Made by a program: the position numbers and the translations under genes. The notes under the pieces are model-generated. The model worked only from the letters and a program-made list of their open reading frames with translations, was not told the origin of the DNA and made no database searches. From assembly GCA_001784175.1 (NCBI GenBank), contig MFPR01000017.1, positions 93,024-157,023 of the forward strand: a stretch of 64,000 nt of DNA, given 5' to 3'. Below are positions 10,252 through 49,324 of the stretch, piece by piece; position 1 is the stretch's first letter, and each line of letters begins with the position of its first letter. The DNA comes from Candidatus Lindowbacteria bacterium RIFCSPLOWO2_12_FULL_62_27 (lineage in GTDB: Bacteria; Lindowbacteria; 2-12-FULL-62-27).

Positions 10252-12132
10252 ATGCGGATTCTGGAGGAACGAAAAGGGGTCATCTATTTTATCCTGATCG
10301 TGTTCACGGTCAGCGTCCTCTACTACCTGACCCACATGATGAATTTCTTCATGTACAAAGTCTCTTTCACGGATGTACTCGGGAAAATCTACTACGATGC
10401 CGGCGAATACGCGCCGGAAGGATTCAGCCTCCACCTGTTCAAGCACAGCCCGACGCTCTATTCGGTCATCCCGTCCTGGCTGTACCGGGCGTTTCATATC
10501 AACGTCAAGATTCTCATGGAGGCGACGGGCTTCCTGATGATCTTCTTGTCCCTGCTCGGCATGGCCTTCCTCGCCGATGTGGGCCGGTCGGCCGACAGGG
10601 TCACTGCGTTTCTGTGTTCGGCCTATTTGCTATTTTCGGACATCGGCTTTGTGCCGCTCGGCAATCACTGGGCGATCACCGGCCAGGTCCTGACGGCGAG
10701 CACGTACGGCATTGTGTGCATGATGTTCGTGCTGGCGGCGTTTCTCAAGGCGAGGTACGTTCTGGCCGCGTTTCTCCTCGGCGTGACGTTCACCATCCAC
10801 GCCGGCAATGCCGTGATGGCCGGCCCGCCGCTCGTCGTGGCGTTCATCGCACGCGAGTGGAGATCGCCGGGCTGGATCAAAACACTGCTCCTGTCCGCGG
10901 GCTGTTTTTTGATCGGCACCGCGCCCTACTGGATCTTCCTGGCCCGCGAGCACAGTTACGTCAACTGGGTCGCCGGCGACGAGTTGAAATATTTCGAGTA
11001 CCTGCGGCTCAGCATGCACTATCACAGCCATCCGAGCGAGTGGCATCCGGCGAAATACATCACGTTCCTGACATTCCTGGCGGTCGGCTGGCAGGGCCGT
11101 CGCCTGCTCCGGCCGGACATCCGCGGGCGGTTTTCGGTCATGGTCGGCGTGTATGTCGCGATGGCCCTCGTGTTCGCGTTCTTCACGGAAGTCGTTCCCG
11201 TGTGGGCGATCGCCAAATTGTCGCCGTTCCGGCTGTTCACGCACCTGACCCTGCTTTTTCTTCCCTGCTACTTCCTGTATCTCCGGGAACTTCTGGTGGA
11301 CCAGGACCGGCCCTGGATGGGCGTGCTGGCGGCATGGACGCTCGGCGCCACCTTTTTCTCCGTCGACGGCCCGCCCATTGTTCCCTGCCTCTTTTTGCTG
11401 GCCGCGCCTGCGCGGCGGCGGGTCGTGGTCTCGATGCTGCTTCTCTGCGTGTTGTTTTCAGCCGCGCTGGTCATTCTGATTCCCGGCGATGCGCGTTTGA
11501 GTTCCGGCCGGATGTTGTCTTTCCTGTATTACGGCTCCTACCTCGTGCCGACCCCGTGGAAAATCGGCGTCACGATCGCGGTCCTCGCGCCCTTCTCAGT
11601 CGCATGGTTCCGGTTTCGCGGTCCGGAGGAACGGGCGCGGTTGTTTCTGCTGTTCATGGTCGCGTTCTGCGCGGCGCGGGGCGTCTACAATGTCAACGAG
11701 CGCGCCGCGAAGAACCCGCGGTCCGTCGATTATTACGGGATGCAGGTGTGGGTCCTCGATCACATTCCCAAAGACGCCGGCGTGATCATCGATCCGGAAC
11801 TCGGCGGGTTCCGCGATTTTGCGCGACGCAACGTGTTCGTCACGTGGATGGATATGTATTCGGGCCGGCTTCTCCCGTTCGTCTATGAAGAGGTCCTCGG
11901 CCGGTTCAACGACCTGACGATCTCCTACGACGAACTGCGCGGCGTCCGCAATTCGGCCCGGTCGGCCCACATCTCCGAGCGGTTCGCCAAACTCGATCCG
12001 GAGGTGTTCCGCCGGATCCGCGAAAAATATCCGATGTACCGGTACGTCCTCTATGTGAACGCCCGCGATCCGGTCATCCGCCTGCCGGTGATCCATAAAA
12101 ATGCGAACTTCACGCTGTGCGAAATCGACTGA
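10252..12132 (+). CDS. polytopic membrane protein, GT-C/glycosyltransferase-like, unassigned
   Basis: 626 residues from ATG 10252, chosen for GAGAGGAGG 2-10 bases upstream; an in-frame ATG at 10102 would overlap the divergent gene. Around 11-12 hydrophobic helices cover residues 8-480, followed by a soluble C-terminal domain of about 140 residues (YYGMQVWVLDHIPKDAGVIIDPE onward). Large luminal loops after the first helix (SFTDVLGKIYYDAGEYAPEGFSLHLFKHSP) and the overall layout resemble GT-C membrane glycosyltransferases, but no family motif is decisive. It is divergent from the radical SAM/ATP-grasp operon and shares a 139-base intergenic region with it, so the three may act in one surface-modification pathway (inference). 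Confidence 0.7.
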   Translation: MRILEERKGVIYFILIVFTVSVLYYLTHMMNFFMYKVSFTDVLGKIYYDAGEYAPEGFSLHLFKHSPTLYSVIPSWLYRAFHINVKILMEATGFLMIFLSLLGMAFLADVGRSADRVTAFLCSAYLLFSDIGFVPLGNHWAITGQVLTASTYGIVCMMFVLAAFLKARYVLAAFLLGVTFTIHAGNAVMAGPPLVVAFIAREWRSPGWIKTLLLSAGCFLIGTAPYWIFLAREHSYVNWVAGDELKYFEYLRLSMHYHSHPSEWHPAKYITFLTFLAVGWQGRRLLRPDIRGRFSVMVGVYVAMALVFAFFTEVVPVWAIAKLSPFRLFTHLTLLFLPCYFLYLRELLVDQDRPWMGVLAAWTLGATFFSVDGPPIVPCLFLLAAPARRRVVVSMLLLCVLFSAALVILIPGDARLSSGRMLSFLYYGSYLVPTPWKIGVTIAVLAPFSVAWFRFRGPEERARLFLLFMVAFCAARGVYNVNERAAKNPRSVDYYGMQVWVLDHIPKDAGVIIDPELGGFRDFARRNVFVTWMDMYSGRLLPFVYEEVLGRFNDLTISYDELRGVRNSARSAHISERFAKLDPEVFRRIREKYPMYRYVLYVNARDPVIRLPVIHKNANFTLCEID

Positions 12133-12138
12133 GTGAAC

Positions 12139-12227
12139 TTGCGCGACAAGCCAAATACAGTAAAATGCACACATCCGTGTGTGCGCCCGCACCCTCCGTC
12201 GTCGGAATTACATCCATGTAATTCCGA
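12139..12227 (+). promoter_or_regulatory. probable ancestral tRNA-Arg promoter and two hairpins, now separated from the tRNA
   Basis: TTGCGC (12139-12144), a 16-base spacer and TAAAAT (12161-12166) form a promoter reading toward the truncated tRNA at 12258. Downstream are a hairpin with arms GCACACA/TGTGTGC (12167-12184) and a perfect 26-base palindrome (12202-12227; inner arms GGAATTACAT/ATGTAATTCC). The promoter would originally have transcribed the tRNA gene now lying 10.5 kb away. Confidence 0.45.
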
Positions 12228-12257
12228 AGTCCCGCCTTCGGGTACGGCCGCATCCAT

Positions 12258-12298
12258 GCGCCCGTAGCTCAGTTGGATAGAGCATCGGCCTTCTAAGC
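12258..12298 (+). repeat. att copy 1: truncated 5' half of tRNA-Arg (left end of island)
   Basis: These 41 bases are identical to positions 1-41 of the intact tRNA-Arg(UCU) at 22762: acceptor 5' strand, D arm, anticodon stem and loop including TCT, plus two more bases. Homology stops inside the 3' anticodon stem, so this copy cannot fold as a tRNA. It marks the left boundary of element 1. Confidence 0.9.
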
Positions 12299-12523
12299 TG
12301 ATCCACGCAAATTTCAATTTTTCAACGGCGTTCAGGATTATTCAGTAAGCGTCTGTTCCTTGTTGAATTATCTCCGCGTGTGATTTTCTGATTTCAGGAT
12401 TTTTCAGTTCGAGTAGGCGCAGTTCCGTCCCCTTTTGTCCCAAAAACCGGTACAAATCCGGTACAAGTTTGGAAGCGTGTTTCGTGGCGGATCATGGGCA
12501 GTCATCGCTGCTCCCCTTGCATT
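12299..12523. other. non-coding left end of element 1
   Basis: No gene is supported here. The stretch is more AT-rich than the chromosome, with short direct repeats (CCGGTACAA twice near 12449-12470; TTTTTCA-like repeats near 12318-12345), as expected for integrase arm sites or the left end of a mobile element. Confidence 0.4.
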
Positions 12524-12553
12524 TGTAACAAAAATTGTGTACTTTTTGTTACA
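12524..12553 (+). promoter_or_regulatory. operator-like inverted repeat upstream of AbiEi
   Basis: Perfect 11-base arms TGTAACAAAAA and TTTTTGTTACA separated by 8 bases, 20 bases before the antitoxin start. AbiEi antitoxins autoregulate by binding inverted repeats, so this is the likely operator and overlaps its promoter. Confidence 0.75.
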
Positions 12554-12573
12554 ACCATTGAGGCGGTGTGTTT

Positions 12574-13182
12574 ATGCGATCTGTTGAAAGCAAGATGACC
12601 GGCAGAATATGCGAAAATGACAGGGGTTGGTGCTTTACTCCAAAATCGTTTTTTGGCCTTGGAAGTTCCCAGGCCATACGCATTACCCTTCACCGGCTTG
12701 AAAAACGGGGGACCATTCGCCGCTTGGCCCATGGTCTGTACGATTATCCCAAAAAGCATCCATCCATAGGCATTCTGTCACCGGATCCGAACGAGATAGC
12801 AAGGGCGTTATCCGTTCGCGATTCCACGCGCATTCAACCGTCCGGCGCTTATGCGGCTAACCTGCTGGGCCTGACGGAACAGGTTCCGGCGAAGATCATA
12901 TTTCTAACGGACGGCCCGGAACGGAGGGTCAGAATTCGATCCCAAGAGATAATCCTGAAGCGGACAACCCCCCGATACATGGCGACCGCCGGGAAAATCA
13001 GCGGAACGGTCATTCAGGCGCTTCGGCACATCGGTGAGGCGAATATCGCGCAATCCGGAATCAAAAGGTTGAGGAAGATGCTGAAGGATAAAGACAGGGT
13101 TCAGCTAAAACGGGACAAGAGACACGCGCCGGCGTGGATGCACCACTTGATTGATTCGATCACGGGTTCCGCCGATGCGTGA
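12574..13182 (+). CDS. AbiEi-family (DUF6088) antitoxin, type IV toxin-antitoxin
   Basis: 202 residues. The N-terminal winged helix (SVESKM...GWCFTPKSFFGLGS.QAIRITLHRLEKRGTIRRLAHGLYDYPKKHP) and the following SPDPNEIARAL, QPSGAYAANLLGLTEQVPAKIIFLTDGP and TTPRYMATAGKISGTVIQALRHIG blocks are the DUF6088/AbiEi pattern end to end, so it looks full length. The family represses its own promoter and neutralizes an AbiEii nucleotidyltransferase toxin. Start: ATG 12574; a GTG two codons earlier (12568) is also possible. The toxin gene directly downstream starts 8 bases before this stop but is broken, so the antitoxin is now an orphan. Confidence 0.88.
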   Translation: MRSVESKMTGRICENDRGWCFTPKSFFGLGSSQAIRITLHRLEKRGTIRRLAHGLYDYPKKHPSIGILSPDPNEIARALSVRDSTRIQPSGAYAANLLGLTEQVPAKIIFLTDGPERRVRIRSQEIILKRTTPRYMATAGKISGTVIQALRHIGEANIAQSGIKRLRKMLKDKDRVQLKRDKRHAPAWMHHLIDSITGSADA

Positions 13183-13384
13183 ATTTGCGAAACTTCCGTC
13201 CTTGGAACGCGACACCATTTTCCTGGAGACGGCCAACCGGCGAGGGCTCTCCCGCCTGGTCGTGGAGAAGGACTTCTGGGTCTGTTTCACGCTGTCTCTG
13301 CTGTTCGAGTCAAAACAATTCGACTATCTGTTCGTCTTCAAAGCGGAGCAATGCGGAGGCTTACCAGATGATTTCCACGCCTGA
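13175..13384 (+). pseudogene. truncated AbiEii nucleotidyltransferase toxin
   Basis: The first about 55 residues (MREFAKLPSLERDTIFLETANRRGLSRLVVEKDFWVCFTLSLLF...LFVFK) match the start of AbiEii/AbiGii-type nucleotidyltransferases, where VEKDFWV and the following LFKGGTSLSK are hallmarks. Here homology stops right before the GGTSLSK nucleotidyltransferase motif at about 13340, and the frame continues only as antisense of the PIN gene (AEQCGGLPDDFHA) to a stop at 13384. The catalytic half (normally 200 or more residues) is gone, so no toxin activity is expected. The break point coincides with the end of the convergent PIN module, which suggests that insertion or recombination of that module replaced the rest. 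Confidence 0.8.
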
Positions 13385-13750
13385 TTTCTCCGAAATGTCG
13401 GCGTCTTTGGTGACGATGGCAACGGGTTCTTTGGTCAAGGCGGAGAAGGAGCGGGCGGTCGCAATAATGATGGCGTCATGCAATTCGAAGCCCGCGGGCA
13501 ACAGCGGAAAGAGCGCCACGTCCAAAGGAGCAAATTCAATATTTCGAATCCGGGACCATTTGCCGAGAAGGTCTTCAAAAATGGATGTCACTCGCCGGCG
13601 CTGGCAGAGGTGCCAGATTTCGCCGGCGACGATCGTCGGAACAACCAACCGGCCTGTCAGGTCGGCCATCGCCCCACGGGCCTTGGCCGTCAATCGGCGG
13701 TCATTTTCCAGAAACCATAACAGCGAGTGTGTATCGGCGATGCGGATCAT
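13361..13750 (-). CDS. PIN-domain ribonuclease toxin (VapC-like)
   Basis: 129 residues, typical PIN length. The conserved acidic residues are present: Asp6 (RIADTHSLLWF), Glu in VAGEIWHL (about 43), Asp in LHDAIIIATA (about 95) and the late Asp in IVTKDADI (about 117), so a metal-dependent RNase active site seems intact. PIN toxins cleave tRNA, rRNA or mRNA when released from the partner. The ATG overlaps the stop of the upstream small gene (13747-13750), the standard antitoxin-toxin arrangement. It lies opposite to, and its 3' end abuts, the broken AbiEii gene. Confidence 0.85.
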   Translation of the reverse strand: MIRIADTHSLLWFLENDRRLTAKARGAMADLTGRLVVPTIVAGEIWHLCQRRRVTSIFEDLLGKWSRIRNIEFAPLDVALFPLLPAGFELHDAIIIATARSFSALTKEPVAIVTKDADISEKSGVEIIW

Positions 13751-13956
13751 GCTGGAAACGGTTTTATCCAGCTCTTCTTCGCCTCGTCGATCTCCTGGTC
13801 CGAAAAATGGATCTTCTTCCGCCAGATGCCAAAAAGATCCCGCATTTCGAGGGATTTACCCTGTTTTTTGCTCCGCTGGTTTACCGCCAATCGCAGAAAT
13901 TCAATCTGCCGTTCCAAGCTGTGAAGTTGTAACAGCACATAATCCGGTGTTGCCAT
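13747..13956 (-). CDS. antitoxin partner of the PIN toxin
   Basis: 69 residues from ATG 13956, chosen because GAAAGGGGAA sits just upstream; the longer frame from 14043 has no ribosome site. The N-terminus is helical (DYVLLQLHSLERQIEFLRLAV) and the C-terminus RDLFGIWRKKIHFSDQEIDEAKKSW resembles the toxin-wrapping tail of antitoxins encoded next to PIN toxins (DLRGIWxGxVDFSEEEIxxAK pattern). It overlaps the toxin start by 4 bases. The DNA-binding family is not one I can name. Confidence 0.75.
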   Translation of the reverse strand: MATPDYVLLQLHSLERQIEFLRLAVNQRSKKQGKSLEMRDLFGIWRKKIHFSDQEIDEAKKSWIKPFPA

Positions 13957-14141
13957 GGCGTTCCCCTTTCCTTCGCGCAACGGCTCGGATCCCATCGGAA
14001 CCGAACCCTTTTCATGCCGCACACAGTATATCCGCCGTTCCACTCTCCGTCAACATTCGCAACCATGAGCCGTTTGCCCCACGAATTGCGGGACGAAAGC
14101 CTCATCGCTGCGTGGCAGGGATGATGTACGGGAAAAAGATT

Positions 14142-14220
14142 ATTTGTGATTGGTGATTCCTAATTTGTGATTTGTGATTGCGATAATCACAAATGGGAAA
14201 TCACAAATCACCAATCACAA
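14142..14220. repeat. intergenic inverted-repeat unit, copy 1
   Basis: A 79-base unit made of GATTGGTGATT/TTTGTGATT words on the left and their complement (AATCACAAAT...AATCACCAATCAC) on the right, able to form a long hairpin. Its left 38 bases are identical to the second copy at 16745. The two copies are in direct orientation around the S74 gene. Confidence 0.85.
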
Positions 14221-14278
14221 GTCGCTTTCGCCGCATCGCGGCGTCGAGGTATTACACGACCTGGGGAGGTCGACTGAC

Positions 14279-16674
14279 ATGAAAAAGTTCGTACTGGGTT
14301 TACTTTTCGCTTTCCACTTTGCACTTTTCACTTGGAACGCCGCATGGGCGGACGTTCCAAAATATATATCCTTCCAAGGCGAGCTGACGGACTCGCAAGG
14401 CACGCGCATCACCAGCTCCAAAAGCGTGACCTTCAAACTCCACAGCGCCGCGTCCGGCGGGGCGATTCTCTGGTCCGAAGCGCAGACCCTGACGCCCGCC
14501 AACGGCATCGTGAGCGCGAGCATCGGAAGCGCGACGGCCGGCGGCGTGAATCTGGCGTTTGACACCGGTTACTGGCTCGGCGTGACCGTCTCCCCGGACG
14601 CCGAGATGTCTCCCCGCATTCGACTGACGACCTCCCCCTATGCGTTCATCGCCAAGTTCCTCGACACGGGCGCGACCGCCTACGGCGCGCTGTCGGTTGC
14701 CGAAACGGTGACGGCGAACAAGTTCGTCGGAAACGGATCGCTCCTGACGGGCATCACGGCATCCGCCGCGTCGGACACGGATTGGACGATTGCGACGGCG
14801 AGCACGATCTACCGGCTCTCCGGGAATGTCGCCATCGGCACGACCAGCACGGCGGACAGCTTGCAGATCGAAGGCACGCTCAACGTCGATTCGCCGACGC
14901 TGTATGTGGATGCGGCGAATAATCGGGTCGGCATTGGGACGGCGAGCCCGAACGCGACATTTGAAGTTAACAACGGGCAGTCCATGTTTCACGACGGCGC
15001 TTTCACCGATCCCCATACAGGCACGGCATATGACGCCAAGTTCGGGGGCCCAAACCGGGGCATCGGGGTCAAAGGGATATCTATTTTCAACGACAACGTC
15101 GGCATCGGCACAACGTCTCCGGCGGATTCGTTGCACGTCGCAGGCCGCATTCAAATGGACACGAACGCGGCGACTTCCGCCGCGGACGGCGCGATTCGGT
15201 GGTCGGGATCGGATTTCGAGGGCCGGAAGGCCGGATCGTGGGCGTCGCTGACGGCGACGGGCGGCGCGACGCCGGATACGGACTGGACGATGGTCGGCGG
15301 CACGATCGGGAACATCTACAGGAGCGCCGGGAATGTGGGCATCGGGACATCGAGTCCGTCGGATTCGTTGCATGTGGCCGGAACGGTTCGCGTTTCGGAT
15401 TCGATGACGGTCGGCGATACGGTGTTCGTGGTCAATTCAAAGAGCGGCAACGTCGGCATCGGCACCACAGGGCCAGCAAGTACGTTACACTTATACCAAT
15501 CAGGAGCAGGGCTCGTTATTCAAAATTCAGCCACAGCCGGGGTGGGCAATTTAGCATCTATACATTTTCGGAACCTGCTCGCATCTGGCGCAACTCACTA
15601 TGCCGCTATTATTAGAGGGGCTCAAGATAGCACTACCCAGAATAGTGGGCATTTAGAGTTTGTCACGTACAATAATGGCAATGCCGATGAGAGAATGAGA
15701 TTAACAAAAGAAGGCAACGTCGGCATCGGGACGACGGCGCCAGGGGCGAAGATGCACGTTGCCGTTGATAACTACGAAAGCATCCTGTTTGATCGGAGTG
15801 TAAATGTGAACTCCCCGAATAAGTACTCGATAGGCGTAAGCTACTCTGGCGCTGGCGCTGACTATCTCAGATTGGGCAAGACGGGCGGAGATCCATTCGT
15901 CATCAATCCAAGCGGCAACGTCGGCATCGGGGATACGGCTCCGGGGAGCAGGTTGGATGTAACGGGAGCGGCGCATGTATCTGATTCTTTTGCAGTGGGT
16001 ACTGCGGCGGGCGACCGTCTGGTTGTTACAACATCGGGCAACGTCGGCATCGGCACAACGACGCCGGGGGATAGTCTGGTTGTCAAGGGCGGAGTTATGT
16101 CGGACACACTGACAGTGGGAGACACGTTTTTGGTTGTATTAAAGAGCGGCAATGTCGGCCCGGCACGACGAGCCCTGGCGCTAAATTGCACGTCGCCGGA
16201 AATGTTATCGTCAAAGACACCATAACCGTCGGGGATACGTTCTTGGTCGTCCTTGCCAGCGGCCGGGTCGGAATCGGCACCGCAAGCCCAGATACCGACT
16301 TCTCTGTCAACGGCGGGGCATCCAAAGTCGGCGGCGGGTCCTGGGCGACCTTCTCCGATGGCCGCCTCAAGAACATCGACGGCCAGTACAAAGCCGGCAC
16401 GGCGGAACTCATGAAACTCAATCCCGTCAAATACCGCTACCGCGCGGACAATCCGGTCGGCATCAAGGATGGCGCGCCTCATATCGGCCCTGTTGCTCAA
16501 GAAGTTAAGGAAGCCATCCCGGAGGCGGTTGAATCGAACAACCAAGGTTACCTCATGCTCAACAACGACCCCATCATCTTCGCGATGCTGAATGCCGTCA
16601 AGGAACAACAGGTGACGATTGAGAAGTTACAGGGGAGAATCGAGGAATTGGAGAGGAACCAAGCGGCGAAATAA
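14279..16674 (+). pseudogene. secreted repeat protein with C-terminal S74 intramolecular chaperone domain, one frameshift
   Basis: Start ATG 14279 has GGGAGG 9 bases upstream and begins a signal peptide (MKKFVLGLLFAFHFALFTWNAAWA), so this is an exported bacterial protein, not a phage virion gene. After an N-terminal domain of about 130 residues come about ten GNVGIGTxSPxDSLHVxG repeats, then DGRLKNIDG...LNPVKYRYR...IGPVAQEV.EAIPEAV and a trimeric coiled coil (VKEQQVTIEKLQGRIEELE) typical of peptidase S74 endosialidase chaperones. At 16158-16162 one base is missing within a repeat (GGCCCGGCACG where GGCATCGGCACG is expected), shifting frame 2 to frame 1; the upstream frame stops at 16225. Restored length would be about 798 residues. 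Could be decay, sequencing error or frameshift switching. Confidence 0.85.
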
Positions 16675-16744
16675 GATTACGGGCGGACCTCCCGCCAAAG
16701 ACCGGCCGGATGATGCATGCGCCATTTTAGATTGCCGTCGGGGG

Positions 16745-16820
16745 ATTTGTGATTGGTGATTCCTAATTTGTGATTTGTGATTTCAATCACAAATTGGAAA
16801 TCACAAATCACCACTCACAA
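16745..16820. repeat. intergenic inverted-repeat unit, copy 2
   Basis: Same hairpin-forming unit as at 14142, differing only in the loop and a few right-arm bases. It ends at the 3' end of the DUF2442 gene. Together the pair brackets 14221-16744. Confidence 0.85.
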
Positions 16821-17087
16821 CTATTTTTTCTTTGCGTTCGGGGCAGGAGCGCCTCGAAGAAGTCCCTCCGTACTCAAATCCTCATCAATTTCCGGCCAGT
16901 GAATGCCGTACCCCCCGCCGCCGACCTGCCATTTTTTCCTTTGCTTCGGCGTGGCGTTCGCGAGTTTCGGATACCAAGCCAGAGGAACCGTGATGGTGCG
17001 GCCATCCGACAGGCTGACGCTCAGGTCAACCTCTGTGATTTTAACGTCTCTTACCCGTTCATCCGCGCCCAGAGCCAAAATACCCAT
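16821..17087 (-). CDS. DUF2442 domain protein
   Basis: 88 residues from ATG 17087, chosen for TTGGAGG 6 bases upstream. The core VRDVKITEVDLSVSLSDGRTITVPLAWYPKLANATPKQRKKWQV.GGGYGIHWPEIDEDLSTEGLL matches DUF2442, a small basic protein family often next to a DUF4160 protein in predicted toxin-antitoxin pairs. No DUF4160 partner is present here, so it may be an orphan antitoxin. Found inside element 1. Confidence 0.85.
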   Translation of the reverse strand: MGILALGADERVRDVKITEVDLSVSLSDGRTITVPLAWYPKLANATPKQRKKWQVGGGGYGIHWPEIDEDLSTEGLLRGAPAPNAKKK

Positions 17088-17186
17088 GCCATGCCTCCAA
17101 GAATTCCAGTCGATGTTCCCTGACCAAGCGAACCGTCGGCATAACACGCACGAGTATACACGATTTCATGCATGAATTCAAAAAAA

Positions 17187-17444
17187 CGGGCAACGTCGGC
17201 ATCGGGACGGCGGAGCCGCGACACCGGGAACATGGGGCATAAAAATATTTCGACGACTCGCCGGTACGCGCATCTTGAGCGAAAACAAAAACAGGAGGCG
17301 GTTGACAGTATTTCTGATCAACTCAGCGATGAGGCCGGCGATCCCCAGAATTCGAAGGCCGCGAGAAAATTGGGTTGGACAATTGCCCCGACTATCGTAA
17401 TATTTCAAGAAAGTGGAGGAGGCATCCATGTACGCATGCGGTGA
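17187..17444 (+). pseudogene. recombination scar: S74 repeat fragment joined to the C-terminal tail of a tyrosine integrase
   Basis: From 17187 one frame reads GNVGIGTAEP, one S74-type repeat. About 35 bases later another frame reads MGHKNISTTRRYAHLERKQKQEAVDSI, the box with the conserved (G)HK and catalytic Tyr of a phage-type tyrosine recombinase, and continues to a stop at 17444. The entire upstream integrase is missing. It lies 103 bases from att copy 2, the usual position of an integrase, so it is the remnant of element 1's own integrase, a different family from that of element 2. Confidence 0.78.
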
Positions 17445-18994
17445 AAGGGCTGTTCCCGGATATGGTCGATGCGAAAATTTTGCACAAATTTTGCACAAGT
17501 CGATTTTGAATTGTCGCATTGTTTTGTAACTGTTTGATAATCCCAATGCGCCCGTAGCTCAGTTGGATAGAGCATCGGCCTTCTAATTCGTTGGAATGGT
17601 AAAGAAGATGCAGACCCATTTTCGCCATCTTCATCAACCATCTCATTCTGCGCCTGTAGCCACGCCTTCAACGTCTCCTCTGCACGCAACAATTCATCCC
17701 TCAACCCCGACGGCAACGCATCGGCGTAATCACGCTCCAATTCTGCAACCGTATGGCCAAAGTGTTTTGCGAGCCGTACCATGTCGAAGCTGATACGCGT
17801 TGCGGCGTGATACCAAACACTTGCCACAGTTTTCCGAAGGCAGTACGACGCAGCACCGAGCCTCTCTCCGATCAAGACACGAAACCTGTCAGACATTTCC
17901 GACGATATAGTATTCTCGCTACATTTTCGCTCCGCGAATTGTGGCAACAGCGCAACGACAGCGACGTCGCCAGAGCTATCAACAAACCTATCCCGAGCGG
18001 CATCATACTGTAATCCGCAATGTGTTGCATATGCACGCAACCCCGCAATCAAACGATTCGAGAGCATCATCACACGCCCGCGCCCGCGTTTTAACTTTTT
18101 CGATTTTTCATTTTTCGGTGGTACAAAAATTCCACGACGGGACAAGCGCACATGATCCCAACGGATACGACGCACCTGCGCGGCACGGTTGCCGGTCTCG
18201 CGTTCGACGAGCAACCAAAAATCTGTATCATCTACACTCGACAAGACATCATCAACCACACGTAACTCTTGACCTGTCAGGACACGCCAAATTTCTTGGC
18301 GCGTCGGCGATTGTGCTTCAAACCCGAGCGACCGCATACGCAACACCAAACGAATATTATTTTCCGTGACAAGTTTTTCCAGAATTCCTGCATCCACCAC
18401 ACGCGCCAACAACTCAATTTCTTTCTTGATCGTATTATCCTTTGAAAACGGCTGCGCACGCCGATATTCAACGTATTGCGTAAGGCGAGCCTGCGACACA
18501 ACAGAAATCTTGTCATTGCCAAAAAAACGCAACAACTTATTCAGGTCTGTTGCGTGGCGTTTACGTTGACCTCCGCTCTTAACCACTCTGAAACAATAAC
18601 CGTTTTCCTCGACGAATTTTTTTGCGAATCGGCCATTCGACGATGGAACATACCGTCCGACCTGCAATTTTGACAAAATACCGCATTGAGATGTTGCCAA
18701 ATGTTCTACAATTTCCTGCACCGTTAAATCCTGACAAACAGGATCGACAGCAACACCACGATGAACGATTGACAGCGCACGCTCAAGCGTTGACACTTCC
18801 ACATCACGCCGGGACAAGAGATTTTCTGTAGTCCCTTCCTCCGATACCTCACGCCGACGAATGCCGTCAAAGTCATAGTCTTCGACAACATCGGCTTGAC
18901 GACACATCAACGCCGTGGGAACATCTGGACGAGATCGATTTTCAGTTTCAACGGCCTGCGGCTGGCCCCGCAGGCTTTGTTTTTCCTCAAGCAT
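17405..18994 (-). CDS. tyrosine recombinase (integrase) of element 2, reading through the att site
   Basis: 529 residues. SAM-like core-binding domain about 130-240; catalytic domain about 240-430 with Arg270 (ETGNRAAQVRRIRW), a KNEKSKK beta-hairpin Lys near 298, Tyr384-x-x-Arg387 in place of HxxR, His414 (FGHT) and nucleophile Tyr423 (RDYAD). ATG 18994 has GGGAGG upstream and overlaps the previous gene by 8 bases. After about residue 468 the frame enters att copy 2 (RRPMLYPTELRAH is the antisense of the tRNA half), and the last 46 residues are coded by element 1 DNA. In an excised circle the tail would instead come from 22761-22571. The N-terminal about 100 residues are unusual and unassigned. 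Last gene of the element 2 operon. Confidence 0.88.
   Translation of the reverse strand: MLEEKQSLRGQPQAVETENRSRPDVPTALMCRQADVVEDYDFDGIRRREVSEEGTTENLLSRRDVEVSTLERALSIVHRGVAVDPVCQDLTVQEIVEHLATSQCGILSKLQVGRYVPSSNGRFAKKFVEENGYCFRVVKSGGQRKRHATDLNKLLRFFGNDKISVVSQARLTQYVEYRRAQPFSKDNTIKKEIELLARVVDAGILEKLVTENNIRLVLRMRSLGFEAQSPTRQEIWRVLTGQELRVVDDVLSSVDDTDFWLLVERETGNRAAQVRRIRWDHVRLSRRGIFVPPKNEKSKKLKRGRGRVMMLSNRLIAGLRAYATHCGLQYDAARDRFVDSSGDVAVVALLPQFAERKCSENTISSEMSDRFRVLIGERLGAASYCLRKTVASVWYHAATRISFDMVRLAKHFGHTVAELERDYADALPSGLRDELLRAEETLKAWLQAQNEMVDEDGENGSASSLPFQRIRRPMLYPTELRAHWDYQTVTKQCDNSKSTCAKFVQNFRIDHIREQPFHRMRTWMPPPLS
17548..17586 (+). repeat. att copy 2: truncated 5' half of tRNA-Arg (junction of elements 1 and 2)
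   Basis: 39 bases identical to the first 39 of tRNA-Arg(UCU), ending in the anticodon loop (TTCTAA), after which the sequence is element 2. The spacing to copy 1 (5290) and to the intact tRNA (5214) defines two tandem elements. Confidence 0.9.
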
Positions 18995-19352
18995 GAAAAT
19001 CCCTCCCCACTCGTGATTTTTGCATCATCCTAAAATCCAACCGCAACCCAAATCGCTTCGAAAATTTTTCCATGACCTCTATCTCCGTAATTGACAACAT
19101 ATGAAAATCCAACAACCGCCTAATCACACTTTCAACAACACGTTTATTTTTCATAATATCGTCAGCGGTCATAACGACACACCCACTGTACACAATAACC
19201 GCTCCTGTAATTGGATCAAAAATCACCCACACTTCATCTTTTTGAATGCGACGCAACAATAAATCAAAATACCCAGCATCTCGAAAATGCAATTTTAAAC
19301 AATCAATCAGTTTCCTTAACTGGCGATTCTCTAATTTTCTTTTTTCGACCAT
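18987..19352 (-). CDS. hypothetical protein of element 2
   Basis: 121 residues from ATG 19352 (AAGGTGTTGCG upstream). I do not recognise the family. The middle part (DEVWVIFDPITGAVIVYSGCVVMTADDIM) looks like a beta-meander and the flanks are basic helices. The gene overlaps the end of the ribbon-helix-helix gene and the start of the integrase gene, so it is translated within the same operon. By position between a regulator and the integrase it may be an excisionase or recombination directionality factor, but no xis-like helix-turn-helix is evident. Confidence 0.6.
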   Translation of the reverse strand: MVEKRKLENRQLRKLIDCLKLHFRDAGYFDLLLRRIQKDEVWVIFDPITGAVIVYSGCVVMTADDIMKNKRVVESVIRRLLDFHMLSITEIEVMEKFSKRFGLRLDFRMMQKSRVGRDFHA

Positions 19353-19549
19353 CGCAACACCTTGCCTTTCTCGGTTGTCCGGCATCTGGACAAATATTCA
19401 CGGATCGCACGCCGGATCAAATATGAAATTGCGCGACCTTCGCGACGACCAAGAACACGAAGTCGCTCACGGTCGATCACAGGCATATACACGGTGACCG
19501 CCGCGCAACCTAATCCCTTCACATCCAGAAAATCCATTACCTTACTCAC
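19331..19549 (-). CDS. ribbon-helix-helix (CopG/Arc-like) DNA-binding protein
   Basis: 72 residues. The N-terminal strand (GCAAVTVYMPVIDRERL) followed by GRREGRAISYLIRRAIREYLSRC fits a ribbon-helix-helix fold, in which the strand reads DNA as a dimer. GTG 19549 is preceded by GGAGGT at 8 bases; the in-frame ATG at 19537 is the alternative. It is the first gene after the 225-base gap and overlaps the next gene. Likely the transcriptional regulator or relaxosome accessory of element 2. Confidence 0.7.
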   Translation of the reverse strand: MSKVMDFLDVKGLGCAAVTVYMPVIDRERLRVLGRREGRAISYLIRRAIREYLSRCRTTEKGKVLRWSKKEN

Positions 19550-19774
19550 CTCTCACCACCTCCTATTTTTCCTCCCACGATGTCTATTGTCAACTCCTTG
19601 AGCTACAAACGGTAATGTATTATTTTTGTTGACAAATTAACTCCCATCAACACAAGCAATTACATCCAACTAACATCTGCTACTCTCCGCAATTATTTTT
19701 TCAAAGTCCCCATCTACACCCTATGTTATTAGGTTCAGCTCTCTTTTTCTTCGGGAGACCCCTTCTCCCGACCT
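19550..19774. other. intergenic region of element 2 with hairpin; candidate promoter/origin
   Basis: No gene seen. Right after the ftsK stop (minus strand) is a perfect 7-base stem (CGGGAGA/TCTCCCG, 19752-19770) without a U-tract, so it is not a classic terminator. The rest is AT-rich; on the minus strand there are TTGACA near 19585-19590 and TTGTCA near 19630, which could drive the regulator-integrase genes. It is the only sizeable non-coding gap inside element 2 and therefore a candidate for the transfer or replication origin. Confidence 0.4.
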
Positions 19775-21121
19775 CTACCCACTTTCCCCCTCTGACAAAA
19801 TCAAAGGAACCTGAACTTGTAACTCATCAAGTCCCCGACTCCATATGAACCGGCCGGGCGTCGCCGGCAATTTTGCAGATGCACCCGACCCGATTAACTT
19901 GACTGACATATCCAGATTTTTTAAGCGTCCGATCAGGCGGCACGGCAGATTATCCCGCAACTGACCATCCAGCACTCTTACATCTGGACGCTGCGTCGCA
20001 AGAATCAAATGGATCCGCGCTGCGCGACCCTTCATTGCAATGCGCTCAAGTCCCAACTGAATTTCCTTTCCATCTTTCCCGGACACAACGTCCGCAAGCT
20101 CGTCCACGACAAGCACCAGCGGCACGAAATCATCCGATCCGGTACGCGCCTGCTGGTATCGCTCGTCCATCTTCGACACAAGCGCAGTTATCAGCGACAA
20201 GAATTTTTCGGACTCAAACACGTATGCTTTCAATTTCGACTCGATACCTTTGTAGTCCGTCCCTTTCGCATCGATCAGCACAATATCAACACACTGAGCA
20301 ATCAGTTGCCGTATCAATCCCAACAGCACCGTTGTTTTTCCACATCCTGTTTCACCACCAATCAGCAAATGCACCATTTCGGTCAACGTGATCACCACGG
20401 ACCGAGAAAAACTCTCTCCAATGTACAATTGCCCCCTACCGGGGGCCGCGTCCGCATGCGCGGCCGCCTGCGCCCGATTCACCGCTTCTTTCACAGTCAA
20501 CTCAAACCGCCCCGGCAATGTTCCGGTTCCATAGTCATATTGGTAGCTACCTGCCCCGCACTCATGGAAGCTTTCAAAATGTCCGTTGTATTCATTCGCC
20601 AACCGTTCTGTTTCCATCCTCTCCCGGTCTGTACCGCGTGGCCGGAAATATAGTGTCACCGCGCGACCCCGCGAAAACTCCGCAATGAAGTCCGGCGGCT
20701 CACCCGAGCCACTGACAACTCCGGCACTCCGACAATGTTGCTCAAATTTTGTCGCTGAAATTCGCCATCGCAAATTGAACGCACAGCCGAACGAAAACAC
20801 CATCAACAGAAATGCAAGCAGAACCAACACGATCAACGGAAACGATCCGATATACTCGACAGGTTGCAGAAGTCCAACACCCAAAAGCAAAGTTCCAGAT
20901 ATGTATAAGTCAACCGGACGGAAGTACCACCGATCCGTCCGTAATTTCACCGAACAAAATCTTACCCAGCCATCAAGACCGCCGACCATCAACAAAAACA
21001 GAGACACAACAGATAACGTTCTCCTGAACGCCTCCAGCAGCGGAACATGACCGAACGCCTTCAACAGCCCGGCTACGATAATCGCCAGCCCAGCCGACAA
21101 GCAGACAATGAAACGCATCAC
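19775..21121 (-). CDS. FtsK/SpoIIIE-type DNA translocase of element 2
   Basis: 448 residues. Four hydrophobic helices occupy about residues 5-118. The motor domain has Walker A GGETGCGKT (255-263), a DAKGTDY motif (about 284), Walker B LVLVVDELADV (about 336-346), and GRAARIHLILATQRPDV with NLPCRLIGR, the sensor region diagnostic of FtsK/HerA motors. The size and single-gene transfer logic fit the FtsK-like translocases of actinomycete integrative elements (AICE) or the TcpA coupling proteins of small mobilizable elements; a Zot-type inovirus ATPase fits less well because the FtsK motifs are complete. No gamma (KOPS-reading) domain is present. It starts in an ATGA overlap with the 133-residue gene. 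Confidence 0.88.
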   Translation of the reverse strand: MMRFIVCLSAGLAIIVAGLLKAFGHVPLLEAFRRTLSVVSLFLLMVGGLDGWVRFCSVKLRTDRWYFRPVDLYISGTLLLGVGLLQPVEYIGSFPLIVLVLLAFLLMVFSFGCAFNLRWRISATKFEQHCRSAGVVSGSGEPPDFIAEFSRGRAVTLYFRPRGTDRERMETERLANEYNGHFESFHECGAGSYQYDYGTGTLPGRFELTVKEAVNRAQAAAHADAAPGRGQLYIGESFSRSVVITLTEMVHLLIGGETGCGKTTVLLGLIRQLIAQCVDIVLIDAKGTDYKGIESKLKAYVFESEKFLSLITALVSKMDERYQQARTGSDDFVPLVLVVDELADVVSGKDGKEIQLGLERIAMKGRAARIHLILATQRPDVRVLDGQLRDNLPCRLIGRLKNLDMSVKLIGSGASAKLPATPGRFIWSRGLDELQVQVPLILSEGESG

Positions 21122-21519
21122 AGCCGGGAGAACTCCGATACATCTTCCGCACCTCGAACCGCCGTAGCCTTCAGCTTGCGCGGAGCCTTGTCGTCAGCCG
21201 AGATCGGCGACACAGCGTCAGGCAACTTCACATCATCCCGACGTTTTCTGCCCGAGTACTCCAATATCACCGCAGGATTAGGAAACTCCCTACAGCGATA
21301 GAACCTCTGACCTTTCCATTCGCGAACCCGGAACACATCCAAAACCATCTGCTTGCCGTCTGGCAGATCGATATGACCCGGAGAAGTCATATCGCAGCGG
21401 TAAAACTCCCGCGTACCCCGATCAACAAGCTCAAACGAGTACGCAAAAAATTTCTCTCCGGACTGTTTTGCTGTTACCTCACGCTCCCGAACATTTAGTA
21501 CAGGACCGGCTAAAATCAT
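21118..21519 (-). CDS. small beta-rich protein of element 2, possible single-strand DNA-binding protein
   Basis: 133 residues from ATG 21519, which overlaps the rep stop as ATGA. The first 95 residues alternate strands (MILAGPVLNVREREVTAKQSG, FFAYSFELVDRG, FYRCDMT, GKQMVLDVFRVREWKGQRFYRCREF) in a pattern compatible with an OB fold. The tail is charged and disordered. Lying between a Rep_trans gene and an FtsK gene, it occupies the slot of the ssDNA-binding protein in rolling-circle phages and elements. No family is recognised with certainty; the function is inferred. Confidence 0.55.
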   Translation of the reverse strand: MILAGPVLNVREREVTAKQSGEKFFAYSFELVDRGTREFYRCDMTSPGHIDLPDGKQMVLDVFRVREWKGQRFYRCREFPNPAVILEYSGRKRRDDVKLPDAVSPISADDKAPRKLKATAVRGAEDVSEFSRL

Positions 21520-22574
21520 TTGCAACCACCGCCCTCTCGTTGAAATTTTATCAGGTCAGCAACACTGCCAACCCAGTTCATTGACTCCGCGCGACGCAGA
21601 AAATTGCGCCACTTCTGGACGGAATCTATGCGGTACCACCACCCAATGCGTGCAAACTCCCGCGCAATCTCTCTATATTTTTTTGTATCTTCCTTGGGAC
21701 AGACGACACGACGACGCAACTCAAGAGTTTCCGTATCAGGGCGACGAAACGCGGACCACTCCGGAACAGGAACATCGTTCAAGACCGGAACGCACCGATC
21801 CAGCGACCAGTTCCAAATTCCCGAAAACTTTTGCTGGAAATCTGCGAACGTGTCAACTTTCAGATCATGCAAAACTGAACGACGCAATTCCACCTCGTAG
21901 CGTAAAACCTGAGACTTGCCGTCCCAGCCGGACCGCATCCAACGCTCAAACCAATCCTGTCGCGCCGGATTCTTTGTGACGTTGAGTTCATAGGGTTTGT
22001 CATACAAACGTGTCACCATATCCCCCGACCTGAACCAGTACCCGCTAAACCGCGAAGGTGTTCCATATTCCTTCGATTCGTATTTCCCGCCTTTCATTCT
22101 GCAAGACCAACCCCTCAACCCCAGAGACGCAAAATCTGTCTCCGGCACAAAATCCACGCAAACATCTACGCGCGATAAAATTTCACTTTCAATATCAGCG
22201 TGAGAACGTGCCAACTCCAATACGACACGCTCAACATATTCCAAATTTTCCGAGAGATTCGGACACGCACGTGATCTGAAAATGACATACAACTCTGGTA
22301 CGCCAACACTGTAACGCTGATGCGATGACAACCACCCCTCAACTTTTTTTATCTGTATCTCAATGCCCCTCGACTCATTCACCAGAGTAAAAGCGTAAGG
22401 ACCGCGACCCTTGCGGCGAACTTCCGAGTTTTCACCACCCAAGTCAAACCGCGCCGATCCGGTCTCCTGCGCTTGGAGCTTCAGCTTTTCCAAATCAGAA
22501 TTGAGACCTTCGCGCAGTACGACGCGCCGAGATACCATAAGCGTGTCGATGGCCGGACCGTGTAGAATCTTCAC
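21516..22574 (-). CDS. Rep_trans/MobT-type replication initiation or relaxase protein
   Basis: 352 residues from GTG 22574 (GAGAGGT 8 bases upstream); GTG 22583 three codons earlier is the alternative. Motifs of the Rep_trans superfamily (pT181-type Rep, Tn916 Orf20/MobT, RstA): EILSRVDVCVDFVPETDF near residue 140, MVTRLYDKPYEL near 190 and VLRYEVELRRSVL near 225. These proteins nick and initiate rolling-circle replication or conjugative transfer at an origin. First gene of the element 2 operon; it overlaps the next gene by ATGA. In the circular form it would overlap the integrase stop as GTGA. Confidence 0.8.
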   Translation of the reverse strand: MKILHGPAIDTLMVSRRVVLREGLNSDLEKLKLQAQETGSARFDLGGENSEVRRKGRGPYAFTLVNESRGIEIQIKKVEGWLSSHQRYSVGVPELYVIFRSRACPNLSENLEYVERVVLELARSHADIESEILSRVDVCVDFVPETDFASLGLRGWSCRMKGGKYESKEYGTPSRFSGYWFRSGDMVTRLYDKPYELNVTKNPARQDWFERWMRSGWDGKSQVLRYEVELRRSVLHDLKVDTFADFQQKFSGIWNWSLDRCVPVLNDVPVPEWSAFRRPDTETLELRRRVVCPKEDTKKYREIAREFARIGWWYRIDSVQKWRNFLRRAESMNWVGSVADLIKFQREGGGCK

Positions 22575-22761
22575 GGACGCCACCTCTCGACAGTAGGCTC
22601 AACAGACGATACACGCAGACCATCCCTCGAAAGTTCAATTTTCAAATTGATTGTGATGTTGACGTGAGCTTCGGCCGACACGTTCAGGCCGTTGCTCACA
22701 GCCGATGGTCGCGTTAGACTTTGCTTTTCTCCGCTACCGTTTGTATCATCATTACTTGTGT
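22571..22761 (-). other. in-frame alternative integrase tail used only after excision
   Basis: Reading minus from the att core of the intact tRNA, the integrase frame (RRPMLYPTELRAH) continues as TSNDDTNGSGEKQSLTRPSA and on to VERWRP with a TGA at 22573-22571. No ribosome site or start is present here in the integrated state, so it is not a gene by itself. It becomes the 3' end of int when the element circularizes. Confidence 0.65.
22721..22749 (+). promoter_or_regulatory. element-supplied promoter for tRNA-Arg
   Basis: TTGCTT (22721-22726), exactly 17 bases, then TATCAT (22744-22749), ending 12 bases before the tRNA. It lies inside element 2 and replaces the native promoter left behind at 12139. 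Confidence 0.7.
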
Positions 22762-22835
22762 GCGCCCGTAGCTCAGTTGGATAGAGCATCGGCCTTCTAA
22801 GCCGAGGGTCCCCGGTTCGATTCCGGGCGGGCGCG
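22762..22835 (+). tRNA. tRNA-Arg (anticodon UCU)
   Basis: 74 bases including discriminator G. Perfect 7-base-pair acceptor stem (GCGCCCG/CGGGCGC), D arm GCTC...GAGC, anticodon stem TCGGC/GCCGA with loop CTTCTAA (anticodon TCT, reads AGA), a variable loop GGGTC, and T arm CCCGG-TTCGATT-CCGGG. CCA is not encoded. It is the only intact copy; its first 39 to 41 bases are repeated at 17548 and 12258, making it attR of the island. Confidence 0.97.
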
Positions 22836-22836
22836 T

Positions 22837-47578: not shown

Positions 47579-49324
47579 TTACTGCGCCAGCAGCCGGACC
47601 GCCTGCGCGACCACCTCGAAGGGGAGCCATGAATCGGAGCCTTCCAGATTGATGAAGGTCCTCGGCGATTTCGCCAGGGCCGCCGCAAGCGGGTCCCACG
47701 AAAGCGGGCCCTGGGTGCCGGAGTCCTTGGTCGAATAGAACCACAGGCTGCCCGCGTCTCCGCTGCGGCCGGCCCACTCCAGCACGACGCGCACGCATTC
47801 CTCCAGCTCGCCAAAATCGATTTTCGCATCCTTGTTCTTGTCGAAGGACGTCAGGAGGTCGTGGTTCCGGTTGAGCCATTTCCGGATCTCTTCGGCCGCA
47901 CGGTTGCGCTTCGCGGCCTCGTGTTTGAGTTGATCGCCCAACTCCGCAAGCCGCTGCGGATCGCTCATGAGTTTCCCCAGATAGTCCGGCAGGCGCAGGC
48001 CCGCGTTCCGGGTCAGCTCATGCAGCGGCGGAAGAACGCCGACCAGGCCCGACACGAAGTCGGACGTGCTGGTTTTTCCGTCTGCGCGCTTGCCGCCTTC
48101 CCACACCGTCACCGAATCGATCTTCAGGTTCGAGATTGCCTTCACCTGCTCCGCCACCAGTTGCGGGAGCTGCTCGGTGATCATGAGGAGCGCCGCCAGC
48201 TCCGGGCTGCCGCCGCTGGCGCGCACGACTTCCCGCAGGCCCGTGGCCTTCCGCGTCAGGATCGCCATCAGTCCCTCGGCTTCGCCCTCCATCACGGACC
48301 GGATCCCGTCGGCCTCGCCCTTCTTTGTCCGCCGCGTCTGTTCGGCCTGCGCCTCAGCCAGAATCTCGATGCGTTTCTTTTCGATCTCCGTCGGCACGAT
48401 CACGTTCGCGACCTGCGTCGCCTCCTCGCGCTTCGCGCGCTGCCGTTCCGCCGACTCTTCTGCAACGTATGACTCCCTCAACGCGTCGGCGGCCTTCACC
48501 TTCTCGGCCGCCGTCCCCAGACGCTCCGACTCGGCCTCCTTCTCGCGGCGATTCGCGTTGGACTGCGCGATCGTGATCGCCGCCAGGTTCTCGCCCTGCA
48601 CGGCCGCCGCGTGCGCGCTGGCGACCTGGATCCGCTGTTCCTTATTGGCCGTCGCCTTGCCGATCTCACCGTCGCGTTCCTGCTGCGCGACCTTGATCTT
48701 CGCCTCGTTGATCGCGCGCGCGGCCGCCTCCTTGCCGAGGGCCTCGATGTAGCCCGATTCGTCCGTGATGTCCTGGACGTTGACGTTGATGAGGCGCAAC
48801 CCGACTTTCTTGAGTTCAACCTCCACGCCCTTGGATATGTTGTCAATCAGCCGGTCGCGGTCCGCGTTGATCGCCTCGATCGGCATCGTCGCGATCACCA
48901 CGCGCATCTGGCCGAAAATGATGTCCTTCGCGACCTCCTGGATCGTTTTCATGTCCAGACCCAGCAGCCGCTCCGCTGCGTTCTCCATGATGCCGGGCTC
49001 GGTCGAGATGCCGATCGTGAAGGTCGACGGCGTGTTGACGCGGATGTTTTGCTGGGACAAGGCGCCCCGCAGGTTGATGTCGATCGGAATCGGCGTCAGG
49101 TCCAGATACTGGTAGTCCTGAATCACCGGCCACACAAAAGACGCGCCGCCGTGATAACACTTGGCGTGCAGGCCCCCGACGCCTCCCCCGCTGATCTTCC
49201 CATACACCACCAATATCTTGTCCGACGGGCAGCGCTTGTAGCGCGACGCAAAACTGATGAGGGTGACAAACAACGCCAGGATCCCGCCGCCGATCAAAAA
49301 TAAATACGCGACTGAAAATTGCAT
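47579..49324 (-). CDS. flotillin-family protein with C-terminal EF-hand and GYF_2-like domain
   Basis: 581 residues. Membrane-anchoring helix 5-25, SPFH/band 7 domain about 40-200 (VYGKISGGGVGGLHAKCYHGGASFVWPVIQDYQYLDLTPIPIDINL), then the long AQAEA-rich flotillin coiled coil (200-360) and the flotillin C-domain. Unusually, residues 495-506 (DKNKDAKIDFGE) form a canonical EF-hand calcium loop and 527-570 (SLWFYSTKDSGTQGPLSWDPL...DSWLPFEVV) resemble GYF_2. Flotillins scaffold membrane microdomains; here calcium binding may control it (inference). The NfeD-like partner lies directly upstream. Confidence 0.92.
   Translation of the reverse strand: MQFSVAYLFLIGGGILALFVTLISFASRYKRCPSDKILVVYGKISGGGVGGLHAKCYHGGASFVWPVIQDYQYLDLTPIPIDINLRGALSQQNIRVNTPSTFTIGISTEPGIMENAAERLLGLDMKTIQEVAKDIIFGQMRVVIATMPIEAINADRDRLIDNISKGVEVELKKVGLRLINVNVQDITDESGYIEALGKEAAARAINEAKIKVAQQERDGEIGKATANKEQRIQVASAHAAAVQGENLAAITIAQSNANRREKEAESERLGTAAEKVKAADALRESYVAEESAERQRAKREEATQVANVIVPTEIEKKRIEILAEAQAEQTRRTKKGEADGIRSVMEGEAEGLMAILTRKATGLREVVRASGGSPELAALLMITEQLPQLVAEQVKAISNLKIDSVTVWEGGKRADGKTSTSDFVSGLVGVLPPLHELTRNAGLRLPDYLGKLMSDPQRLAELGDQLKHEAAKRNRAAEEIRKWLNRNHDLLTSFDKNKDAKIDFGELEECVRVVLEWAGRSGDAGSLWFYSTKDSGTQGPLSWDPLAAALAKSPRTFINLEGSDSWLPFEVVAQAVRLLAQ

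Follow-up and report, generated by a model that had tools for sequence, protein, structure and literature searches.

The window, by which we mean the whole 64,000-nucleotide stretch of a Candidatus Lindowbacteria contig analysed here, contains a 5.2-kb segment, element 2, that on balance we take to be an excisable element whose integrase gene (int) spans attP, so that the C-terminal tail of the enzyme would be exchanged upon integration and the replication gene (rep) would be expressed mainly from the excised circle. The tail swap itself is plausible, its occurrence being more probable than its absence, though it is unproven. The features on which this reading depends are the following.

12257–12296, plus strand: 5' half of tRNA-Arg(TCT), copy 1, marking the upstream boundary of element 1 and matching the other two copies over all 40 bp
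17547–17586, plus strand: tRNA-Arg 5' half, copy 2, 40 bp identical; the att core dividing element 1 from element 2
22761–22800, plus strand: copy 3 of the att core (core identity), forming the 5' half of an entire tRNA-Arg gene at 22761–22836 (ARAGORN)
22721–22749, plus strand: promoter-like TTGCTT-17-TATCAT (consensus match alone, 8 of 12)
17405–18994, minus strand: tyrosine integrase int, integrated form, 529 aa (phrog_1, 4e-12; phrog_216, 4e-10; PF00589, 3.7e-4, below the Pfam cut-off)
22571–22760, minus strand: circle-only continuation of int, 62 codons and TGA, with a GTGA overlap with the rep start (frame reconstruction)

The copies of the tRNA-Arg(TCT) 5' half end in the anticodon loop. 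All three share 40 bp and copies 1 and 3 share 42 bp; ARAGORN recognises a complete tRNA gene at the 22761 copy only, and copy 1, at 12257, is probably the original chromosomal tRNA half. Together the cores delimit two tandem segments, element 1 (12297–17546) and element 2 (17587–22800), the latter forming a circle of 5214 bp when its ends are joined in a reconstruction. Element 2 has six genes, all on the minus strand and all with intact reading frames; element 1 encodes a DUF6088 (AbiEi-like) protein, a PIN-domain protein and a repeat-rich, fibre-like protein with NVGIGT repeats. The 5' end of the tRNA half at copy 1 is interrupted by a 67-bp insertion (12190–12256) with the 8-bp repeat TGCGCCCG on both sides (12182–12264); contig 4 of this genome carries a 67-bp copy with 73% similarity, and the insertion may be a small dispersed repeat. 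Elements that insert into the 5' half of a tRNA gene need to bring the promoter of that tRNA. The promoter-like site at 22721–22749, supplied by element 2 and placed to drive the restored tRNA, is a candidate for this role judging from its sequence, and in the integrated state the right arm of the element would thus provide the plus-strand tRNA promoter.

The int gene starts at ATG 18994, and the portion preceding the core (17588–18994) encodes 469 aa, including the catalytic box KHFGHT...ERDYADAL at about residue 420, that is, upstream of the core. The protein thus combines a family profile match with box II and its catalytic Tyr, as expected of a tyrosine recombinase. From residue 470 the core at 17547–17586 is translated as RRPMLYPTELRAH, the antisense of the tRNA half, and the integrated frame terminates at 17405, to the left of the core in element 1 DNA; the sequence-only reading that we followed up had described this run through att copy 2, and its coordinates and frame are correct. 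The same reading had traced the frame beyond the core at the other end of the element, and reconstruction bears this out: past the 22761 core the frame reads TSNDDTNGSGEK...VERWRP up to a TGA at 22573–22571 that overlaps GTG 22574, with GAGAGGT 7 nt upstream of that start. A frame-continuous tail therefore exists in the circle, its length being 62 codons past the core and not about 63 residues as first proposed. The circle reads without a break from int through the core and the tail into rep, the last step by way of the GTGA overlap, and its int frame amounts to 545 aa as compared with 529 aa in the integrated state, which leads to the prediction of two int isoforms.

The remaining genes of element 2 and a second promoter-like site are arranged as follows.

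21516–22574, minus strand: rep, putative replication initiator/relaxase of the rolling-circle type, with GTG 22574 as its best start (related proteins in pTHEBA.01 and at 22 GTDB loci)
21118–21519, minus strand: 133-aa protein of unknown fold, overlapping rep (ATGA) and ftsK
19775–21121, minus strand: FtsK/SpoIIIE-like ATPase, candidate coupling protein (PF01580, 1.6e-17)
19331–19549, minus strand: ribbon-helix-helix (CopG-type) regulator, rhh (PF01402, 1.9e-5, over the cut-off)
18987–19385, minus strand: 132-aa protein with an 8-nt overlap with int (ORF and junction check)
19565–19593, minus strand: promoter-like TTGACA-17-AAAAAT upstream of rhh-132-int (consensus match alone)

Rep of the window has no Pfam match; its relatives, among them a 446-aa protein of the Mesotoga plasmid pTHEBA.01, match replication-initiation PHROGs, and one of them matches Rep_trans at 1.1e-5, under the curated cut-off. 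The family shares the motifs RxD...D, YxK..E and RxE, and an Asp at residue 10, numbered from GTG 22574, is invariant in 14 relatives, which indicates that this start is well placed. Family profile searches gave no match for the 133-aa protein. Structure models of Rep and of the 133-aa protein were discarded (mean pLDDT 36 and 38), and a fold search with the poor model of the latter returned nothing significant. The other gene overlaps claimed for element 2 hold in part: rep and the 133-aa gene overlap as ATGA (ATG 21519), and the 132-aa gene overlaps int by 8 nt, but the junction of the 133-aa gene with ftsK is not ATGA, its letters GTGATG allowing GTGA or TGATG. A consensus scan of the minus strand from 22900 to 22574 detected no sigma-70-like promoter, such scans being weak evidence in an uncharacterised host phylum.

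A broad sample of 386 genomes, plasmids and phages contained no homologue of int, and single-sequence pattern searches of viral and genome contigs yielded no close relative of int, rep or ftsK. An exact-core scan of the viral contigs retrieved four, of which three carry complete tRNA genes and the fourth (L031) has an integrase on the tRNA strand that ends before the core. At several loci with related Reps the integration target is a tRNA gene; rep and int share a strand, int adjoins the tRNA, and circularisation would place attP after int. Some of these loci have extra genes between attP and rep, on the opposite strand in L041 and L033. In L041, L048, L059 and L033 the integrase ends 8–26 nt before att, and in L058 a tyrosine integrase beside the Rep relative crosses the whole of a tRNA-Ser gene. 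A serine recombinase frame adjoining a Rep relative (L057, 9338–10555) terminates inside tRNA-Met, showing that antisense-tRNA endings are not confined to tyrosine integrases. Two Rep relatives (L039, L048) lie next to genes resembling those for filamentous-phage Zot and minor coat proteins, and the Rep family may be common to inovirus-like and IME-like elements.

Of 170 genomes from the Planctomycete family to which L058 belongs, 87 contain relatives of its integrase. At 35 loci a tRNA or tmRNA gene lies next to int, and 34 of the integrated frames run into or across that gene, 15 crossing it entirely and 19 stopping inside, and the remaining frame stops short of it; the frame ends are not conserved. 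Circles were reconstructed for the ten loci at which both att copies were found, and in none of them is the frame of the circle the same as the integrated one. Nine circles (L094, L099, L102, L108, L114, L125, L128, L133 and L134) extend the frame 185–274 nt beyond the core to a stop, encoding a homologous C-terminal tail with a helix of the VVxxWxxLPxxIRxxILxLV type, and the tenth (L103) encodes a cut version of it. The tail lies just past the distal att, about 4–12 kb from int, and the targets include tRNA-Ser, -Asp, -Met, -Cys and -Arg. Leave-one-out profiles recovered each omitted member at E-values of 4e-4 to 7e-15, with the best match within its own locus. The conserved circle-joined tail also occurs at L132, outside the training set, where the match is likewise upstream of int (E = 1.3e-10), and at L137, where it lies in frame with an integrase that is intact. 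The tail has no Pfam model, and a search for a plasmid copy of the integrase found none. One locus (L138, G479 contig 23) was considered as an unintegrated attP and rejected, because its tRNA-Ser core at 49212, which follows the integrase and precedes a tail that is not in frame, has two further copies, at 11826 and 77791; this suggests a tandem array, with 49212 a junction of tandem elements. From the reconstructed frames, integration in this family removes a conserved integrase tail, which excision would restore.

The comparison of relatives' C-termini, proposed as a check of the native tail, gives a divided answer for element 2: no relative of this int was detected in the collections searched, the conserved circle tails of the Planctomycete integrases speak for the idea, and most Rep-linked integrases, ending shortly before att, speak against it. 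The claim that the circle gives int a native tail fares similarly, being favoured by the geometry, the frame, the GTGA junction and the principle, which nine of ten Planctomycete circles support, but its own tail has neither a homologue (in single-sequence pattern searches of viral and genome contigs) nor codon support, and the Planctomycete tail profile scores it at -0.6, that is, no match. It is conceivable, although we regard it as less likely than not, that the tail is not usefully coding: 22574–22760 would be tRNA-promoter and arm-site DNA, the open frame and GTGA overlap would be coincidental, int would be complete at its catalytic domain, and rep would use an unrecognised promoter of its own, together with its own start. 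In codon score the circle tail ranks below every coding window of element 2 and is no better than off-frame DNA, the integrated tail likewise finding no support in codon usage, and the plus-strand promoter-like site of the tRNA falls within the same arm. Furthermore, two of the three antisense frames of the core contain no stop, which makes the crossing of the core by itself weak evidence, and the non-conserved integrated tails of the Planctomycete enzymes show that these proteins tolerate additional residues at the C-terminus. On the other hand, only 5.6% of dinucleotide shuffles leave the 187-nt tail open in the int frame (P = 0.056; the remaining two minus frames contain six and four stops), and an open frame together with a stop at the exact 4-nt overlap has, by our estimate from the shuffle result, a joint chance of about 0.003; other gene junctions in element 2 overlap as well. 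Codon usage was dropped as proof of a non-coding tail, since homology-validated tails can score equally low: among the nine Planctomycete tails used for calibration, three fell at the 0th and at about the 4th and 6th percentiles, respectively.

A different explanation, which we consider improbable, is that element 2 has lost the ability to excise and persists as a stranded remnant, the circle frame merely recording an ancestral arrangement. This would agree with the finding of no free copy or close relative of the element in two same-family genomes or any searched collection, and with the neighbouring element 1, in which ORF and family profile checks revealed no recognisable integrase; it is at odds with the intact frames of element 2 and with cores that are identical over 40 bp.

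We return to an active, excisable element as the favoured reading, under which the crossover would take place in the anticodon loop. Integration would replace the int tail with whatever DNA adjoins the target, in this case element 1, and would sever rep-133-ftsK from the rhh-132-int unit, while excision would bring back the native tail and make rep the gene that immediately follows int. Transcription started in the circle at the promoter-like site upstream of rhh-132-int (19593–19565) would continue into rep-133-ftsK, as in Tn916, and the replication and transfer genes would thus be expressed mainly from the circle. For element 2 we infer excision, transcription, translation of the tail and any effect on the direction of recombination; the proposed coupling of rep expression to excision draws on the anatomy of the element, the missing minus-strand promoter between 22900 and 22574, and the Tn916 analogy. 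A tail swap could provide integration and excision with distinct forms of the enzyme without a separate directionality factor, and element 2 may in addition tie excision directly to replication.

Somewhat tentatively, we propose that bacteria have att-spanning tyrosine integrases, as a class, that lose a functional C-terminal tail on integration and regain it on excision. This would be a built-in directionality switch, the enzyme itself signalling whether its element is integrated or circular, and element 2 would be a further, independent instance in which the restored int frame is also translationally coupled to rep. We found no published account of a bacterial integrase tail removed by integration and restored in the circle in the literature searched, which covered only a minor part of the subscription journals. 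Like the Planctomycete integrases (L094–L134), int of element 2 consists of a catalytic part, a linker, an antisense-tRNA peptide and a circle-restored tail of about 60–90 residues, its frame being continuous through att in the circle; the Planctomycete enzymes differ in targeting the 3' end of tRNA or tmRNA genes, in their conserved tail helix and in having no overlap with rep.

The combination of a putative RCR-type Rep, an FtsK-type ATPase, a ribbon-helix-helix protein and an integrase makes element 2 resemble a non-canonical IME or an integrated rolling-circle plasmid. Non-canonical IMEs with an RCR-type relaxase and a TcpA coupling protein have been described in Firmicutes (PMC5704250); they share with element 2 a small integrated element with a tyrosine integrase and an FtsK-like ATPase, and the absence of conjugation pore genes, and the putative RCR-initiator-like Rep of element 2 would be a further point in common. 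Element 2 shows site-specific integration between flanking att copies (the 40-bp cores at 17547 and 22761), and its coupling protein is assigned at the level of FtsK rather than of the TcpA subfamily. It differs in phylum, in its target, a tRNA 5' half, and in the int frame that runs through att into rep.

In Tn916 (PMC6540685), transfer functions require transcripts across the joined ends (Celli and Trieu-Cuot 1998, cited therein); there, as in element 2, int lies at one end and the rep/FtsK genes at the other, and excision puts these downstream of the int side. Tn916 joins transcription across its ends, whereas element 2 continues the int reading frame itself to the rep start. In mycobacteriophage BPs, attP also lies inside a gene and integration switches the C-terminus of the protein (PMC4557955), but that protein, gp33, is a repressor rather than an integrase, and its viral tail is a degradation tag. 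Self-disrupting integrases have been regarded as exclusive to archaea (review PMC8371274). The archaeal suicidal integrases of SSV1, pTN3 and pT26-2 resemble that of element 2 in having att within the integrase gene, which is altered by integration, and their domain Phage_integr_3 (PF16795) had no match in element 2 at E 0.1. In the archaeal enzymes the catalytic part is split from the N-terminus, whereas int of element 2 has its Tyr box ahead of the core, which begins at residue 470; its catalytic part is left whole and the C-terminal tail alone changes. The conserved tails restored in the circle point to a similar device in bacteria, operating at the opposite end of the protein.
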